38,041 nt of DNA. Origin: Woeseiaceae bacterium (GTDB lineage: Bacteria; Pseudomonadota; Gammaproteobacteria; Steroidobacterales; Woeseiaceae). A program made the translations under genes and the position numbers. Positions 11,487 to 34,102 of this stretch are shown in pieces (the stretch's first letter is position 1; every line of letters starts with the position of its first letter). The stretch lies in assembly GCA_030066625.1 (NCBI GenBank), contig JASJBG010000049.1:1-38041 (forward strand). Reading direction: 5' to 3'. The notes below the pieces were generated by a model. The model was not told where the DNA came from, did not search any database, and worked only from the letters and a program-made list of their open reading frames with translations.

Positions 11487-12335
11487 GTGACCGCCGCGAT
11501 CCGCGATCGCTTCAATATCATCCCGGCCACGTTCGCCGTGCTGCTGCACGTTGTGCTGGTCGGGAGTTTCTACCTCACCTTCGACTGGACGCGGCGTACG
11601 CCGCCGGCCGTACCGCTGGCTATCGAGGCGACGCTGGTTACGGACAGCGCCGTCGTGATCCCGCCGCCGCCCATCGAGCAGGAGCCCGTTGCCGACCCGG
11701 AGCCCGAGATCGTCGAGCCACCGCCGCCCGATCCCGCGGAGCTGGAGCGCGCGCGTCTCGAGGAAGAGAAGCGCCAGGCGGACCTGCGCGCGGAGCAGGA
11801 GCGCATCAGGCTCGAAGAGGAGGCCGAAGCAAAGCGGCAGGCCGAGCTGGAGGCAGAGCGCAAGGCAGAGGAGGAGGCTGAGCGCGAAGCCGAGCGAGAG
11901 CGGCAGCTCGAGGAGCAGCGCAGGCTCGCGGAGCTCAAGCGCCAGGAAGACATTCGCCGACAGCGCGAGGAGAACGAGCGTCAGCGACTGGCACTGGAGC
12001 AGGAGCAGCGCAATGCAGCGCTCGCCGCCGAGGAAGAGGCGATGGCGGCGCGCAGTTCGCCCGAAATGGCCCTCTATATTTCGCAGATTTCCAACAAGAT
12101 CCAGCGCAACTGGATCCGGCCGACGACGGCGCCCGACGACCTGGAGTGCGTCGTGCGCGTGAGCCAGCTACCGAGCGGCGAGGTTTTACGGGTGGATGTA
12201 ACGTCGTGCAACGCCGGCGACGTCGTCGCGCGCTCGGTCGAGGCCGCCGTGCGCAAAGCGTCACCGTTGCCTCTGCCGGCAAATCCATTATTGTTTACCC
12301 GCGAATTGAGACTGACCTTCAGAGTGCAGCAATGA
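11487..12335 (+). CDS. tolA: Tol-Pal energy-transducing protein TolA
   Basis: A 282-residue protein that spans the periplasm and links TolQR to Pal and TolB. It has an N-terminal membrane anchor (about 11-33), a proline-rich stretch with VIPPPPIEQ and EPPPPDP, and a long Glu/Arg/Ala-rich helix (about 83-190). A compact C-terminal domain follows (NWIRPTTAPDDLECVVRVSQ onward, with the paired cysteines of TolA domain III and the LPLPANPLLFTRELRLTF end). The start is GTG 11487 with cggag six bases upstream. The helical domain is shorter than in E. coli TolA (421 residues), which is common outside enterics. The stop overlaps tolB by 4 bp. Confidence 0.95.
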   Translation: MTAAIRDRFNIIPATFAVLLHVVLVGSFYLTFDWTRRTPPAVPLAIEATLVTDSAVVIPPPPIEQEPVADPEPEIVEPPPPDPAELERARLEEEKRQADLRAEQERIRLEEEAEAKRQAELEAERKAEEEAEREAERERQLEEQRRLAELKRQEDIRRQREENERQRLALEQEQRNAALAAEEEAMAARSSPEMALYISQISNKIQRNWIRPTTAPDDLECVVRVSQLPSGEVLRVDVTSCNAGDVVARSVEAAVRKASPLPLPANPLLFTRELRLTFRVQQ

Positions 12336-15097: not shown

Positions 15098-15172
15098 GGG
15101 GCGTTAGCTCAGAGGTAGAGCATTCGGCTTTTAACCGACTGGTCGTAGGTTCGATCCCTACACGCCCCACCA
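15098..15172 (+). tRNA. tRNA-Lys (anticodon UUU)
   Basis: A 75-nt tRNA with encoded CCA. Acceptor ggggcgt pairs with acgcccc; the D arm is gctc-agaggta-gagc. The anticodon loop cttttaa gives anticodon UUU (15131-15133); the T arm is gtagg-ttcgatc-cctac. The variable loop is 5 nt (tggtc). The first anticodon-stem position pairs T27 with C43, a mismatch where E. coli tRNA-Lys has a G-U wobble; the other four pairs are canonical. The UUU anticodon is the substrate class thiolated by MnmA, which is also encoded in this window. Confidence 0.96.
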
Positions 15173-24918: not shown

Positions 24919-25803
<885 letters not shown>

Positions 25804-25881
25804 CGATGCTTCCTGCTGCCTGGGGCGAAGGGCGTAAGGGTAGCGAAAGGCGCCAATTGCGACCACCTCGGACTACGGCGC

Positions 25882-25911
25882 TTGCAACCTATTCGGCCCC
25901 GGCGGTATCCA
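25882..25911 (+). promoter_or_regulatory. Candidate promoter for the VNG-repeat gene
   Basis: TTGCAA (25882-25887) and TATCCA (25906-25911) are separated by 18 bp in the 139-bp divergent spacer between the ABC ATPase gene and the solenoid gene. This would give a short leader of about 25 nt before ATG 25943. The hexamers are imperfect, so this is a candidate only. Confidence 0.3.
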
Positions 25912-25942
25912 ATGAACAGAGCCACATACGAGGATGATCGAA

Positions 25943-26650
25943 ATGCCAGTTCTGAGGAAGAAATTCGCCACGATCGGTGCGCTGCTGATGCTCGCGCTCG
26001 CGTTCCAGGCCCAGGCCAGCGTCAACAAAAGCGTCAAGGTACCGGACGGCGGCCAGGCCGACGGCGCCTCATCCGTCAACGGCAGCGTGACCGTTGGCAC
26101 CTACGCGACCATCTCGGGTGACCTGAGCACGGTCAACGGCTCGGTCCGGGTCGGTGAAGGCTCGACTATCCAGGATGCCGAGACCGTCAACGGCAGCCTG
26201 CGCATCGGCGACGGCGTCAACGCCCGCAACCTCGAGACCGTCAATGGCAAGATTCGGGTTGGCGCGAACGCCGTGATCGAAGGCGGCGTTTCGGCGGTCA
26301 ACGGCAGCATCGAGGTTGCCCAGGCGAGCACGGTCGCGCGCGACCTGAGCAACGTCAACGGCGAGATCACGCTGGAAGGCAGCCAGGTGAGCGGCGACGT
26401 GACCACGGTCAATGGCGACGTCAACGTCGTCGACGGCGCAGTGATCCGCGGCGACCTGGTAATCAAGAAGCCCGGCGGCTGGAACTGGAACAAGGATCGC
26501 AAGCCGACCGTAATCATCGGCCCCGGCTCGCGGGTTCAGGGCGTGATTCGGGCCGAGCGCGAGATCAAGCTGTTCATCAGCGAATCGGCCGAGGTCGGCG
26601 GGGTCGAGGGTGAAGCAAAAGCCGAGACCTTCTCGGGTAGACGGCCGTAA
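25943..26650 (+). CDS. Secreted VNG-repeat solenoid protein, function unknown
   Basis: A 235-residue exported protein. The signal peptide is residues 1-25 (MPVLRKKFATIGALLMLALAFQAQA). The mature part has at least six imperfect repeats of 18-20 residues built on TVNGSVRVGEGSTIQDAE, each carrying (T/A/N/S)VNG and a Gly/Val-rich strand. This periodicity fits a beta-helix or bactofilin-like solenoid. After the repeats comes a Trp-rich GGWNWNKDRKP segment, VIIGPGSRVQGVI, and the tail EAKAETFSGRRP. ATG 25943 was chosen over ATG 25934 because gagga lies 8 bases upstream. I believe similar uncharacterised exported proteins exist in xanthomonad-like bacteria, from memory. The tail is repeated downstream of the stop. 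Confidence 0.85.
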   Translation: MPVLRKKFATIGALLMLALAFQAQASVNKSVKVPDGGQADGASSVNGSVTVGTYATISGDLSTVNGSVRVGEGSTIQDAETVNGSLRIGDGVNARNLETVNGKIRVGANAVIEGGVSAVNGSIEVAQASTVARDLSNVNGEITLEGSQVSGDVTTVNGDVNVVDGAVIRGDLVIKKPGGWNWNKDRKPTVIIGPGSRVQGVIRAEREIKLFISESAEVGGVEGEAKAETFSGRRP

Positions 26651-26745
26651 TCCCGGGGACAGCAAAGGCCGAGACCTTTTCGGGTAACAAGCCTTAGAAC
26701 CCGGGGACAGCCAAAGCCGAGACGTTCAGCGGGCAGCGCCCGTAG
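26615..26745 (+). repeat. Three tandem copies of the solenoid gene's 3' tail, each with its own stop
   Basis: Units begin at 26615, 26662 and 26710 (spacing 47 and 48 bp). Each encodes AKAETFSG followed by RRP, NKP or QRP and a stop (TAA 26648-26650, TAG 26695-26697, TAG 26743-26745). The second and third are preceded by the same ccggggaca (PGT in frame). The first unit is the true C-terminus of the solenoid protein. The later two lie outside any gene I can call and are in a different frame from the first. All differences in the eight shared codons are synonymous. Confidence 0.9.
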
Positions 26746-26811
26746 TTTCGCAGCGACACGGCAGCCATAAAACGCCGCCACGCGTCGCAAGGATCGGTAC
26801 AATCCGGGGCT

Positions 26812-27567
26812 GTGAAGCGTGCAGCCCGCCAAATGCCGCTGTTCCCGGCGGCCGAAGAGCCCGACCCGGCGTCGGGCTTTTCTGTGCGCCAGAGCAGCCG
26901 GGCGCGTCGTTTGTCCATCAAGGTCTATCCGCGCGGCCGGGTCGAGGTCGTCGTTCCGAAACGAACCCGGGCGAGGGACGTCGAAGCGTTCGTCGAGGAA
27001 AACCGCAGTTGGATCGCCAAGACGCTCGAGGCATTTGCCGAGAAGCATCCGCCGGAGCCGTTTCGCCTGCCGGCGCGCATAAGGCTCAGGGCGATAGACC
27101 GGGAGTACGGCGTGCTCTACCAGCCGGCCGAGGGCGATGGCAAGGTTCGTTACCGCGTAAACGGGGACATCGTGACGCTGTCCGGCCGTACCGATGACGA
27201 CGCGGCCTGCGTCGACGCGCTGAGGCGATTCCTGTCCGCGACCGCCAAGGCGCATTTCGCCCCGCGCCTGAAAACGCTGTCGCTGGAGACGGGCAACGCG
27301 TACCAGCGGATGCAGGTTCGCGGGCAGAAGACCTGCTGGGGCAGCCACTCGTCGACAGGTACGATCAGCATCAACTACTGCCTGCTGTTCCTGGACCCGG
27401 CCCTGGTCCGCTACCTGATGATTCACGAGCTTTGCCACGCCCGGCATATGAATCACTCGCGCCGCTTCTGGGCGCTCGTGCACCGCTTCGAACCCCGCTA
27501 CCGGCGCCTCGACAGCCGACTGTCGGACGCGTGGAAGGAGATTCCGACCTGGGTCGGATTACATTAA
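26812..27567 (+). CDS. YgjP-type zinc metallopeptidase (DUF45, M48-like)
   Basis: A 251-residue putative metalloprotease of the COG1451/YgjP family. The zinc motif is HELCHARHMNHS: His205-Glu206 and His209, with His215 downstream. The preceding QKTCWGSHSSTGTISINYCL is also characteristic. The N-terminal QSSRARRLSIKVYPRGRVEVVVP is the family's first beta region. The start is GTG 26812, giving the MPLFP element seen in relatives; ATG 26833 and GTG 26884 are in-frame alternatives. A terminator-like hairpin lies within codons 16-24. A TACAAT at 26798-26803 could be a -10 element but has no partner. Confidence 0.9.
   Translation: MKRAARQMPLFPAAEEPDPASGFSVRQSSRARRLSIKVYPRGRVEVVVPKRTRARDVEAFVEENRSWIAKTLEAFAEKHPPEPFRLPARIRLRAIDREYGVLYQPAEGDGKVRYRVNGDIVTLSGRTDDDAACVDALRRFLSATAKAHFAPRLKTLSLETGNAYQRMQVRGQKTCWGSHSSTGTISINYCLLFLDPALVRYLMIHELCHARHMNHSRRFWALVHRFEPRYRRLDSRLSDAWKEIPTWVGLH
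26858..26881 (+). terminator. Terminator-like hairpin inside the YgjP-type gene
   Basis: AGCCCGAC (26858-26865) pairs perfectly with GTCGGGCT (26871-26878) across a 5-nt loop, and the T run is TTTT at 26878-26881. On the + strand this is a textbook intrinsic terminator or attenuator shape. It sits within the first 25 codons of the gene if GTG 26812 is used, but before it if the in-frame GTG 26884 is the real start. Function is inference. Confidence 0.45.
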
Positions 27568-29052: not shown

Positions 29053-29775
29053 TCAGCTTGCAAGCAATCCGAGTAGTTCGGGCAGGACACGCCCCGATTC
29101 ACCCGCAACGGCAAAATGCACCGACGCCGCCTGCTCGGTCGGGTCGGGGTTGATTTCCGCACAGACGGCGCCGTTCTCCCTCGCTATATCAATGAGGCCG
29201 GCCGCCGGGTAAACAAGTGCCGAGGTGCCGATCGACAGGAACATCTCGCAGTCGGCGGCGGCGGCGAAGGCCCGGTCGATGGCGTCCGAGGGGATCGCCT
29301 CGCCGAACCAGACGACGCCAGGGCGCAGCAGGCCGCCGCACGCCTCGCAGCGGGGCAGTTCCTCGTCAGCGGCGTCGCCTGGCCGGCCGCAGTCGAAACA
29401 CCGGTCGACAAACAGGTTGCCGTGAAACTCGATCACGTCGGCACTGCCGGCGCGCTGGTGCAGGCCGTCGACGTTCTGCGTCACGAGCGTGAGCCGCGGA
29501 AGCATGCCGGCGAGCTCGGCGAGCGCGGTATGGCCGGCGTTGGGCACGACGCCCGCGACGAGTTCACGCCGCCACCGGTACCAGCGCCAAACGAGCGCCG
29601 GGTCGCGGCTGAAACCCTCCCGCGTGGCGAGCTCTAGCGGATTGTAGTCTGCCCAGAGGCCGTCCTGTGCATCCCGGAAAGTGGGCACGCCGCTCTCGGC
29701 GGAGACGCCGGCCCCGGTCAGAACGCAGACATGCCGCGCCTCGGCCAGCGCCTCGATGAGCGCAGCCGGGATCAC
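29053..29775 (-). CDS. cobB: NAD-dependent protein deacylase (sirtuin, CobB-like)
   Basis: A 240-residue sirtuin that removes acyl groups from lysines using NAD+. The NAD site is GAGVSAESGVPTFRD (21-35) and TQNVDGLHQRAG (99-110). The catalytic His118 is in EFHGN, and the zinc cysteines are Cys126, Cys129, Cys143 and Cys146. Tyr66 and Arg69 in WYRWRRE match the Tyr-x-x-Arg pair that lets SIRT5 and E. coli CobB accept succinyl-lysine, so desuccinylase as well as deacetylase activity is likely. The start is GTG 29775. The gene's 5' side is occupied by a repeat tract, so its promoter may lie in or beyond that tract. Confidence 0.95.
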   Translation of the reverse strand: MIPAALIEALAEARHVCVLTGAGVSAESGVPTFRDAQDGLWADYNPLELATREGFSRDPALVWRWYRWRRELVAGVVPNAGHTALAELAGMLPRLTLVTQNVDGLHQRAGSADVIEFHGNLFVDRCFDCGRPGDAADEELPRCEACGGLLRPGVVWFGEAIPSDAIDRAFAAAADCEMFLSIGTSALVYPAAGLIDIARENGAVCAEINPDPTEQAASVHFAVAGESGRVLPELLGLLAS

Positions 29776-29816: not shown

Positions 29817-29909
29817 GAAACGGAAGGAGCGAGGGCGTGCGAGACAAGGCGAAGATCGGCGAAAAAGCGCAGCGTACCCAGACGTCTGGGCAGTTGAACC
29901 AGTCTCCGT
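29817..29909. repeat. Modular repeat, copy 1 (short form)
   Basis: A 93-bp unit beginning gaaacggaaggagc and containing gtgcgagacaaggcgaagatcggcg in two parts. It then has aaaaagcgcagcgtac and a perfect 14-bp palindrome CCCAGACGTCTGGG (29877-29890), and ends cagttgaaccagtctccgt. It lacks the right hairpin arm present in copy 4. It begins 42 bp upstream of the sirtuin start codon. Confidence 0.95.
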
Positions 29910-30002
29910 GAAACGGAAGGAGCCAGGTGGTGCGAGACAAGGCGAAGATCGGCGAAAAAGCGCAGCGTACCCAGACGTCTTAGCAGTTGAAACCGTCTCC
30001 GT
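29910..30002. repeat. Modular repeat, copy 2 (short form)
   Basis: A 93-bp unit in direct orientation to copy 1, nearly identical from gtgcgagacaagg to cccagacgtct. It differs at its left edge (gccaggtgg for gcgagggc) and in the palindrome, where tctggg has become tcttag, breaking symmetry. It ends cagttgaaaccgtctccgt. Like copy 1 it lacks the right arm. Confidence 0.95.
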
Positions 30003-30128
30003 GAAACGGAAGGAACCAGGTTGTGCGAGACAAGGCGAAGATCGGCGAAGAAGCGGAGCGTACAAGAACGTACGTGAGCATTCTGAGCCGATCCTATACC
30101 CAGTCCGGGCAGTTGAACCAGTCTCCGT
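30003..30128. repeat. Modular repeat, copy 3 (long form)
   Basis: A 126-bp unit. Beyond gcgtac it carries an insert relative to copies 1 and 2: aagaacgtacgtgagcattctg, then gagccgatc. After the insert it rejoins the common end (cccagtccgggcagttgaacc). GATCGGC (left) and GCCGATC (right) are complementary arms. The pair is matched in copy 4 by GACCGGC and GCCGGTC. Confidence 0.95.
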
Positions 30129-30250
30129 GAAACGGAAGGAGCGAGGGCGTGCGAGACAAGGCGAAGACCGGCGAAAAAGCGCAGCGTACACGAACGTACG
30201 TGAGCATTTTGAGCCGGTCTTCAACGCCGTATCGCGTGTCCTCGCGACGG
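30129..30250. repeat. Modular repeat, copy 4, complete hairpin element
   Basis: The unit begins gaaacggaaggagcgagg and contains a full imperfect palindrome at 30141-30245. GCGAGG (30141-30146) pairs with CCTCGC (30240-30245), and AAGACCGGC (30164-30172) pairs perfectly with GCCGGTCTT (30213-30221). Further pairing lies between, and a cgtac/gtacg core sits at the apex. It abuts the 3' end of acnA, whose stop is at 30256-30258. Together the four copies fill the 480-bp acnA-cobB gap (29776-30255), which holds no gene. Confidence 0.95.
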
Positions 30251-30255
30251 CGATA

Positions 30256-32919
30256 CTACGCCGCGAGTTGTCTCAACACGTAGTGGAGGATGCCGCCGTG
30301 CTCGTAGTAGTCCCTCTCCTTCGGGGTATCGATGCGAATCGTCGCCTCGAACGTGATCGGGTCGCCGCTTTCTGGCGTTGCCGTCACGGTTACCGTGTCG
30401 GCGTCCGCCGTCGTGTGACCCGTGATGTCGAAGGTCTCGGTACCGTTGAGTCCCAGCGTCTCCGCATTCTCGCCCGACTTGAACTGCAGCGGCAGCACGC
30501 CCATGCCGATCAGGTTCGAACGGTGGATGCGCTCGAAGCTTGCAGCGATAACGGCCTTGACGCCGAGCAGCAGCGTGCCCTTTGCGGCCCAGTCGCGCGA
30601 CGAACCTGTGCCGTACTCGGTGCCGGCGAGCACGATCAGCGGCGTGCCCTCCTGCTTGTACTTCAGGGATGCGTCGTAAATCGACATCTGTTCACCGCTC
30701 GGCTGGTGCTTCGTCCAGCCACCCTCGGTGCCGGGAGCGAGCTGGTTGCGCAGGCGGATGTTCGCGAACGTGCCCCGCATCATGACTTCATGGTTGCCGC
30801 GGCGTGAGCCGTAGGAGTTGAAGTCGACCGGCTTGACGCCCTGGTCGACCAGGTACTGCGCCGCCGGGCTGTCGGCAGCAATGCTGCCGGCCGGCGAGAT
30901 GTGGTCGGTAGTAACCGAGTCGCCGAGCAGCGCGAGCACGCGCGCTCCCGATATCTCCGTGACCGGCGCCGGGTCCTTCGTCATACCCTCGAAGTAGGGT
31001 GGGTTCTTGACGTAGGTCGAGGCCTCGTCCCAGGTGTAGATCTCGCCCTCGGGCGAGTCGATGCCTTTCCAGTTGGCGTCACCCTCGAAGACGCTGTCGT
31101 AGCTCGACTTGAACATGTTCGAGTCGATATTCGCGCCGACGACGGCATGAATCTCGTCCTGGCTCGGCCAGATATCCTTCAGGAAGACCGGGTTGCCGTC
31201 CTGGTCTTCGCCGAGCTGCTCCTCGAACAGGTTGACGTCGAGGTTGCCGGCAAGTGCGTAGGCAACAACAAGCGGCGGCGATGCCAGGAAGTTCATGCGC
31301 ACGAGCGGGTGGATGCGGCCCTCGAAGTTGCGGTTTCCGGAGAGCACGCTCGTGCCCACGACGTCGCCTTGCTGCACGGCCTCGGCAATCTCGGGCATGA
31401 GCGGCCCGGAGTTGCCGATGCAGGTCGTACAGCCGTAGCCCACCGTGTAGAAACCGATCGCGTCGAGGTCGTCGAGCAGATCGGCCTTCTCGAGATAGTC
31501 CGTTACCACGCGCGAACCGGGCGCGAGGCTCGTCTTGACCCACGGCTTCGCGCTCAGGCCCTTTTCCCGTGCGTTGCGGGCGAGCAGGCCCGCTGCCACC
31601 ATGACGGCAGGGTTCGACGTGTTCGTGCAGCTCGTAATGGCGGCGATCAATACCGCCCCGTCACGGATCTCGGCGTCCTCACCATTGATATTCGCGACGG
31701 CGCTGCCGCCGTTCGGGCGATCTGCCGTCATCTTTGCGAGATGGTCGGCATAGACGCTGTCGGCCTCCTTGAGCAGGATGCGGTCCTGCGGGCGCTTCGG
31801 CCCGGAGATGCACGGCTCAACGGAGCCGAGGTCCAGTTCCAGCGTATCCGTGTATAGCGCATCGGGCTGGCCGTCCTCACGCCACAGGCCCTGTTCCTTC
31901 GCATAGGCTTCGACGAGCGCAATCTGCTGCGGATCGCGGCCCGACAGCTCGAGGTAGCGGGTCGTCATGCCGTCGATCGGGAAAATTGCGCAGGTCGAAC
32001 CGAACTCCGGCGACATGTTGCCGAGCGTGGCGCGGTCCGCGAGCGGCATGTCGGCGAGGCCGTCGCCGAAGAACTCGACAAACTTGCCGACGACGCCCTT
32101 GTCGCGGAGCATCTCGGTCACGGTCAGCACGAGGTCAGTCGCCGTGGCGCCTTCCTTCAGTTTGCCGGTCAGCTTGAAGCCGATGACGTGCGGGATCAGC
32201 ATCGTAATCGGCTGGCCGAGCATCGCGGCCTCCGCCTCGATGCCGCCGACACCCCAGCCGAGGACGCCGAGGCCGTTGATCATCGTCGTGTGCGAATCGG
32301 TGCCGACGACCGTGTCGGGATACGCACTGCGCGTGCCCTTGCGGTCGGCGTCGAAGATCACCCGCGACAGGTACTCGAGGTTCACCTGGTGGACGATGCC
32401 CGTGTTGGGCGGTACGACGCGGAAATTCTCGAAGGCGCTCTGTCCCCAGCGCAGGAACGAATAGCGCTCCTTGTTGCGCTGGAACTCGATCTTGTTGTTC
32501 AGGTCGAGTGAGTTGGCTGCGCCGTAGTTATCGACCTGCACGGAATGGTCGATAACGAGTTCGGCGGGCGACAGCGGGTTGATGGAATCGGCCGAACCGC
32601 CCAGCTTGACGACCGCGTCGCGCATCGCGGCGAGGTCGACAACGGCGGGAACGCCCGTGAAGTCCTGGAGAATGACGCGACTCGGCGTGAACGAGATCTC
32701 CGTGCTCGGGTCGGCTTTCGGGTCCCAGTTGGCGAGCGCGATGATGTCGTCGCGCGTGACGTCGCGACCGTCTTCGTGGCGCAGCAGGTTCTCGAGCAGG
32801 ATCTTGAGAGAGTAGGGAAGGCGGTCTACGTGGCCTTCCTTGACGGCGTCGAGGCGAAAGATTTCGAAGTCATTGCCATCGACGGCAAGCGTCGAGCGCG
32901 CGCCGAAGCTGTCAGTCAT
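30256..32919 (-). CDS. acnA: Aconitate hydratase A
   Basis: An 887-residue [4Fe-4S] enzyme interconverting citrate and isocitrate. Key segments: [52 protein letters not shown] (in two parts), the cluster cysteines in [11 protein letters not shown] and [14 protein letters not shown], and [16 protein letters not shown]-like [16 protein letters not shown] near the C-terminus. It is AcnA/IRP type rather than AcnB. The start was set at ATG 32919, giving [11 protein letters not shown], with ggag nine bases upstream; the frame runs on to 32973 but would overlap mnmA. It lies 25 bp after mnmA on the same strand. Confidence 0.97.
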
Positions 32920-32944
32920 CGTGTCGTTCTCCGGGGTGTTGTTG

Positions 32945-34102
32945 TTAGCGGGCGGCGGCGATGCCGGCGCCATCAGGGGCGCGCATTATAGCGGATCGGG
33001 GTTCCGTTTTGTCGATGACACCGCCGCCGAGGCAGCGTTCGCCGGCGTAGAAGACGGCGAACTGTCCGGGCGCCACGGCGCGCTGCGGCTCCTCGAAGCT
33101 CACTCGCGCGCTGCCGTCTTCCCGGCCGGTCACGGTGGCGGCCTGGTCGGCCTGCCGGTAGCGAACTTTTGTCGAGCATTCGAGGCCCCTGGCGAGCCCT
33201 TCGGGCGGGGCGCCTATCCAGTGCAGGTCGGTGGCAACCAGCGCCGTCGAGTCCAGCGCGTCGCTCTCGCCCTGGTCGACCAGCAGCGCGTTCTTGTCGA
33301 GGTCCTTGCCAACGACGTACCACGGGCTGTCGCCGGCGTCGCTGCGGCCGCCGATGCCGAGCCCTTTGCGCTGGCCCAGCGTGTAGTACATGAGGCCCGA
33401 GTGCGTGCCCAGTTCGCGACCGTCCAGGCTCCGGATCGGTCCCGGGTTGGCCGGGAGATAGGTGGAGAGAAACTCGCGAAACGGCCGCTCGCCGATGAAG
33501 CAGATCCCCGTGCTGTCCTTCTTCTCGTGAACGCTCAGGCCATATTCGCGTGCCATGGCGCGCACGTCGGTCTTGACGAGTTCGCCGAGCGGGAAGACGG
33601 TTTCCGCCAGTGCCTCCGCAGGTACGGCATGCAGGAAGTAGCTCTGGTCCTTGGCCGGGTCGGCGCCCTTCAGGAGTGCGGGCACGCCGTCAATCGTTGC
33701 CGTACGGGCGTAGTGGCCGGTAGCGAGCAGTTCGCCGCCGAGGCGCTTCGCGTACTCGCGGAAGGCGCCGAACTTGATCTCGCGGTTGCACAGTACGTCC
33801 GGGTTCGGCGTGCGGCCGGCCGCGTACTCGGCGAGAAAGCACTCGAACACGCGTTCCCGGTACTCGCGGGCGAAATTGACGTGGTGCAGCGGACTCCCGA
33901 GCCGCTCGCAGACCCCGCGCGCGTCCTGCAGGTCTTCTGCGGCCGTGCAGTAGCCATCGTCGTCTTCCCAGTTCGTCATGTGCAGCGCCTGCACACGAGC
34001 GCCGGCCTCCTTCAGGAGGATCGCGGCGACGGCCGAGTCGACGCCACCGGACAGTCCGAGGACGACATCACGGCCGGCAATATTGGAGAGGTCAAAGGCC
34101 AT
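32945..34102 (-). CDS. mnmA: tRNA-specific 2-thiouridylase MnmA
   Basis: A 385-residue enzyme that installs the 2-thio group on U34 of tRNA-Lys, -Glu and -Gln. The PP-loop is [12 protein letters not shown] (16-27). The catalytic cysteines are Cys105 ([12 protein letters not shown]) and Cys201 ([13 protein letters not shown]). [19 protein letters not shown] and KVRYRQ mark the C-terminal domains. The upstream gene nudJ ends 38 bp away. The short gap contains gataaaat close to the ATG and no good ribosome-binding site. Confidence 0.97.

Follow-up and report, generated by a model that had tools for sequence, protein, structure and literature searches.

The window analysed here, a stretch of 38,041 nucleotides from a Woeseiaceae bacterium, carries a β-solenoid gene followed by a ygjP-like metallopeptidase gene, with two further copies of the solenoid gene's end lying between them (Table 1). 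The AlphaFold2 single-sequence model of the solenoid protein has a mean pLDDT of 85.7, and its last strand (residues 217–230) reaches into the AKAETF of the C-terminal tail. Pfam returned no family above cut-off for this protein, with Hexapep appearing below cut-off only, and a fold search with the model gave no PDB match at E ≤ 0.001. The neighbours among the four proteins scanned are the ygjP-like peptidase, an ABC ATPase and an unassigned protein, and no toxin/effector domain with an immunity gene was seen among them. Of the 58 genus relatives whose tail is complete, 57 have ygjP behind the solenoid gene. At 58 of 58 loci, the window included, the 11 allowed positions ahead of ygjP contain a TA-N3-T hexamer (the best match to TAGAAT); a consensus scanner returned no sigma-70 site within 25700–27000.

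Table 1 Features of the solenoid–ygjP locus, in window coordinates
Feature	Position	Strand	Remarks
β-solenoid gene	25943–26650	+	235 aa, VNG repeats; signal-peptide-like start by eye
Unit 1, translated C-terminus AKAETFSGRRP*	26615–26650	+	36 bp; present protein end
Spacer 1, TCCCGGGGACA	26651–26661	+	11 nt
Unit 2, tail copy AKAETFSGNKP*	26662–26697	+	36 bp; translation signs not found
Spacer 2, AACCCGGGGACA	26698–26709	+	12 nt; with the unit 2 stop, resembles the ygjP −10/leader
Unit 3, tail copy AKAETFSGQRP*	26710–26745	+	36 bp; looks most native-like; translation signs not found
Likely ygjP −10 box, TACAAT	26798–26803	+	TA-N3-T hexamer, sequence-based
ygjP-like metallopeptidase gene	26812–27567	+	PF01863, E 6.6e-47; syntenic

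Array layout and divergence among the units

The initial annotation of this DNA had described three units, 47 and 48 bp apart, that encode AKAETFSG followed by RRP, NKP or QRP and a stop. Coordinates and translations confirm this layout, each unit consisting of 11 codons plus stop, and Tandem Repeats Finder independently calls the array (26614–26727, period 47, 2.4 copies, score 156). Units 2 and 3 share one frame, which is out of frame with the gene. Judged from the peptides, neither offers an ATG, GTG or TTG once the in-frame stop ahead of it has been passed, and a TAG at 26638 closes the unit 2 frame. On account of that TAG and the missing start codon, we rejected the idea that units 2 and 3 are translated by frameshift or read-through; read-through would give an unrelated 39-residue peptide.

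Elsewhere in the window, a tandem array at 29817–30216 with periods of 93 and 126 bp (92% and 89% matches), open in several frames, sits between a sir2-like frame (29053–29775) and an aconitase-like frame (30256–32973), both named by eye. A 24-bp tandem repeat of 2.4 copies lies at 11839–11895.

The six synonymous differences listed in the initial annotation are all present, and two more were found, CCG/CCT (Pro) and TAA/TAG (stop). Outside the two codons whose residues vary, 8 of 8 differing codons are synonymous, the stop counted. One of the six, the Ser change TCG/AGC, had been read as three base changes within a codon; it can also be aligned, by eye, as one substitution, a 1-base insertion and a compensating deletion a few bases on, and the 9-codon tests therefore omit it. 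Without the Ser codon the count is 7 of 7 (p ~0.6–2.7e-4 for kappa 1–4, a post hoc value for a stretch chosen by the earlier reader). At third positions, unit 1 agrees with unit 3 at 5/9 codons and with unit 2 at 5/9 (hand count; Ser and free codons excluded), about the level found between the gene and the nearest relative compared (0.56 at same-residue codons).

A three-sequence likelihood comparison was made on 10 and 9 codons with omega set to 0.02 and kappa 2, results being similar for kappa 4. With all copies coding (four lengths), lnL was −70.9 and −55.8, respectively; with one selected copy and two neutral copies under a clock (two lengths), it was −78.2 and −65.3. Divergence independent of codons, as expected of a neutral tandem repeat, is thus not what the units display: outside Ser and the free codons, 7 of 7 differing codons are synonymous, and the duplicate-then-neutral model with a clock is worse than the coding model by 7–10 lnL. 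Because divergence among the units is not small, units 2 and 3 ought to have been scrambled had they arisen by a simple duplication long ago. A clock-free neutral model, however, ties with the coding model (lnL −70.8 and −56.5), and does so by near-zero change in units 2 and 3, as if they were just out of translation.

The analysis therefore supports, with that reservation, the earlier proposal that the copies may have evolved as translated C-termini; beside the likelihoods, the tail profile of the genus and the contrast with decayed remnants in relatives (both below) speak for it. A plain tandem duplication would account for the array differently, with units 2 and 3 untranslated and neutral and the synonymous pattern due to luck or a short time. 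The clock-free tie agrees with such a duplication, as do the possibility of aligning the Ser and free codons with two compensating indels and the p of only 0.015–0.03 obtained when the changes unique to unit 2 are taken alone (3/3 synonymous), whereas the 7–10 lnL deficit of the clock model tells against it.

The spacers behave differently from the tails. Their core, CCCGGGGACA, is identical in both spacers (0/10 positions differ, against 6/9 differing third positions between units 2 and 3; Fisher p 0.003, for ten bases chosen for their agreement), so spacers and tails have no single simple common history. The CCGGGGACA that the initial annotation had noted before units 2 and 3, and proposed as a possible deletion junction, is real, although two copies within the window are not rare by chance (7/100 shuffles).

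We also considered a function at the DNA or RNA level, as a dispersed repeat, terminator or promoter array, that would keep the units alike. A fold is possible in which CCCGGGG palindromes pair around unit 2, one spacer resembles the ygjP leader, and the minus strand of unit 1 has a terminator-like site (1 found, 1.1 expected). The fold, however, has a z of −1.57, with 17/200 shuffles as good, Rfam gave no match here at the gathering score, the units are not found dispersed, and their differences keep the codon period, which together make such a function quite improbable. An RNA element as such was rejected, Rfam having returned only a tRNA at 15098 and the fold not being unusual.

The tail and its remnants across the genus

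The genus set comprised 73 genomes, own genome included; 62 had a match, two of them weak (G019, G090), and many of the matched genomes are incomplete. The tail profile was drawn from the 58 relatives with a complete tail. Own-genome duplicates (L001, L032, L033, L057, L058) were dropped before the counts, as were L017 and L049 (same genomes as L060 and L003), L056 (short match), L011 (contig ends before the stop) and eleven non-genus or own rows of the tail comparison. ygjP was not located at L034, which was left out of the stop-to-hexamer counts. L067 was excluded from the tree of relatives, and L067 and L074, being too short, from the trees of the mosaic test.

The typical genus tail reads D-D-A-x-R-F-S-G-x-x-P-stop. 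Gly is present in 58/58 tails, Pro and Arg in 57/58 each, Phe in 56/58 and Ser in 54/58, and 51/58 carry the exact F-S-G-x-x-P-stop pattern. The two x positions before Pro hold eight residues each across the 58 tails, and it is these two freely varying positions at which the three units differ. The residue pairs NK and QR occur on other genus tails (three and one, respectively). All three units carry Lys and Thr where the genus has Asp (56/58) and Arg (57/58), and an AKAETFSG tail, which would mark a donor, was found on none of the 58.

Unit 3 agrees with the tail of L003, from the sister genome G021, at 22/30 positions, against 17 and 15 for units 1 and 2. Of the 58 genus tails compared, 52 show no tie, and for 37 of these unit 3 is strictly the nearest. 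On these grounds unit 3 looks like the native end.

In 10 of 57 relatives the stop codon of the solenoid gene overlaps the −10-like hexamer of ygjP (distance 0). As an observation in its own right, the start of the stop and the start of the hexamer are exactly 10 bases apart in 24/57, a sharp peak at about one helical turn. Within the window, the unit 2 stop and spacer, TAGAACCCGGGG (26695–26706), match the ygjP −10/leader, TACAATCCGGGG (26798–26809), at 10/12 positions, a level reached by 98/20000 shuffles; the unit 1 stop and spacer match at 8/11 only (1780/20000 shuffles). To judge from the resemblance of the unit 2 stop and spacer, the duplicated piece may have extended beyond the gene tail into the promoter of the next gene.

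Relatives carry duplicated tails as well. Fifteen loci, the window among them, leave room for such a copy (27 bases or more); in four, what looks like a decayed second tail immediately precedes the hexamer, with anchored p values, Pro codon left out, of 0 (L022), 0.0007 (L047), 0.003 (L012) and 0.010 (L059). The remnant peptides of the first two read VVRFPCERP-stop and AVRILSEGP-stop. A scan of 20 loci without the hexamer as anchor singled out L022, L012 and the window, but not L047 (p 0.47) or L059 (p 0.34). Weaker remnants at L035, L061, L036 and L003 (p 0.004–0.044 with the Pro codon) were not counted: L036 and L003 lose significance without that codon (0.067 and 0.14), and L035 and L061 lie under the 27-base limit. 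The bases ahead of the −10 box in the window itself showed no similarity that would mark a fourth, decayed unit (p 0.50 and 0.58).

In the tree, L022 and L047 form one pair of sisters (support 96/92) and L012 and L059 a separate one (100/100). The remnants thus stand at two places, though they may share a single old origin with later losses. Between L022 and L047, 5/10 remnant codons differ and 5/5 of these are non-synonymous; between L012 and L059 four codons differ, three of them non-synonymous (hand count). Across the two pairs 8/9 changed codons alter the residue, unlike in the window units. What the four loci share with the window is a second copy of the conserved tail between stop and ygjP. 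Their remnants, however, end exactly at the −10 hexamer and decay with amino-acid changes, whereas the two extra copies of the window are intact and lie away from it.

These remnants bear on the plain duplication in both directions. Tails behind the stop at two other places in the tree make a simple duplication easier to accept, but the remnants that are truly decaying alter residues, which the window units do not. On balance we regard plain duplication as unlikely.

Short Pro-stop-like repeats (GGTCCATAG/GGCCCGTAG or a second CCGTAGAATAG) were also seen by eye directly after the stop at L016, L021, L023 and L062, and are possibly further small duplications of the stop/−10 overlap. In many relatives the gene end overlaps the next promoter, and it seems to have undergone duplication more than once in the genus, a pattern backed by more data than the specific history proposed for the window. 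Repeated duplication at the overlap suggests a resolution in which one copy keeps the protein end and the other keeps the promoter.

Origin of the extra ends

In its own genome (89% complete) the locus is single-copy, the units being found nowhere else with up to 3 mismatches allowed. The initial annotation had named a unit dispersed at non-coding sites as counterevidence to its proposal; none was found in that genome, nor were there the many genome-wide copies of a dispersed REP-like repeat. A REP-like element, our first guess from GGGGACAG, was rejected after the same genome returned the window only. Across the genus, a search with 26610–26750 matched 12/73 genomes (own included) at E ≤ 0.1. 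The best match apart from the own locus covers 49 bases at 80% in G022 (E 3.3e-4) and is not at the orthologous locus; the rest span 17–22 bases. CCGGGGACA-like sites are in some excess over reversed-pattern controls (20 vs 8 in G000, 29 vs 7 in G022, 15 vs 11 in G021). Thirty of 64 such sites were retrieved as loci and 27 contexts, the window included, were inspected, of which none resembles the units by eye except the G022 site. A further pattern gave no match in G022, and an exact match to one 20-base pattern was not found in viral contigs. A limited literature search found no paper on Woeseiaceae with tandem duplication, which does not imply absence from print.

The initial annotation had favoured a collapse of tandem paralogues, in which gene copies diverged under selection within the lineage before deletions reduced them to their tails. 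Such a collapse yields coding-type divergence equally well, and by eye the CCG GGG before units 2 and 3 preserves the Gly of an x-G-x found ahead of the tail in relatives. Against it, none of the 62 matched genus genomes, many of them incomplete, carries a tandem second copy, second matches being weak and on other contigs. The sole strong pair, in G085, looks like a contig break: the match sits at the end of contig C151, and this end overlaps that of the other contig over 159 bp (156 identical). The space between the units holds no remnant of the gene body, and two deletions would need an identical end base. We consider paralogue collapse distinctly unlikely, although it may have occurred in this lineage alone.

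The reading we favour, which falls somewhat short of probable, is that ends of separate gene copies were stacked by unequal or homology-facilitated illegitimate recombination. The three units would be head-to-tail versions of one gene end, each comprising 11 codons, a stop and, probably, the beginning of the ygjP promoter/leader that overlaps it. Each version would have diverged as the translated C-terminus of a gene copy, most likely in separate related genomes, and unequal recombination would have brought the versions together recently. An incoming copy would pair via the gene body, and its other end would join at a few similar bases just before the resident tail, which would insert the new end and displace the resident one downstream, with the newest in front. 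Unit 3 would then be the native, oldest end and unit 1 the end in use. Alternatively, a tandem duplication may later have exchanged with diverged alleles. The array, its coding-type divergence, the single-copy state of the locus in the genomes compared, the failure to find dispersed units and the tail duplication in relatives are observations; the separate source genomes, the order of events and the recombination route we infer.

Several observations weigh against stacking, namely that no donor was found among the 58 genus tails, that the spacer core is identical and that the clock-free neutral model ties. As the three units share Lys and Thr, the donors would all have to carry a derived tail that is known from this locus only. 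A mosaic gene is only suggested: residues 22–130 join the sister G021 with 100/95 support and residues 130–224 do not (0% of 200 bootstrap trees), but the AU test does not reject a 3′ tree constrained to group the gene with its sister (p 0.204), and the signal is non-significant. ComEC and DprA domains are present in the genome but say little, as 10 and 11 of 14 controls, respectively, have them too.

Two further readings give the extra units a continuing role. In one, they are a standing reservoir of C-termini, with recombination or deletion between units swapping the protein end in living populations. The units differ just at the two residues most variable in the genus, and exact tracts common to them could recombine. 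Only one assembled state is known, however, deletion would be one-way, and the free residues look merely unconstrained; we hold this reading to be very improbable. In the other, which we would put forward with just as much doubt, the array might be a miniature archive of C-termini: exchange of ends among genomes of this lineage would be frequent enough for several working versions to be kept in a row, and recombination among them would re-sort the two variable residues in living populations with no dedicated machinery.

Comparison with known systems

The silent cassettes of antigenic variation are untranslated partial copies beside an expressed gene, with coding-type divergence. The window likewise holds untranslated partial copies beside a gene, diverged in coding fashion, but it carries no sign of switching, and the variation amounts to two residues.

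In homology-facilitated illegitimate recombination, one end is homologous and the other is joined illegitimately (PMC3240628). Such a process would fit an added gene end here, for which no donor was found. If stacking is true, silent differences provide a test for gene-end displacement.

Strings of orphaned 3′ ends lie downstream of Rhs genes, and arrays of orphan immunity genes downstream of type VI secretion system (T6SS) effectors (Kirchberger et al. 2017, PMC5361080). That work proposes that a new 3′ end enters by a process akin to homology-facilitated illegitimate recombination, pushing older parts downstream in a row. Compared with the arrays described there, the window has ends of 36 bp, no toxin or immunity gene, and swapped ends that encode nearly the same peptide. 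By analogy, the array would work like T6SS/Rhs displacement; it is not classed as a member, because it lacks a toxin/immunity gene and its ends were not seen as active C-termini in other genomes. Should the proposed history be true, gene-end displacement, discussed in PMC5361080 for toxin and effector genes, would also act on tens of bases at an ordinary gene.
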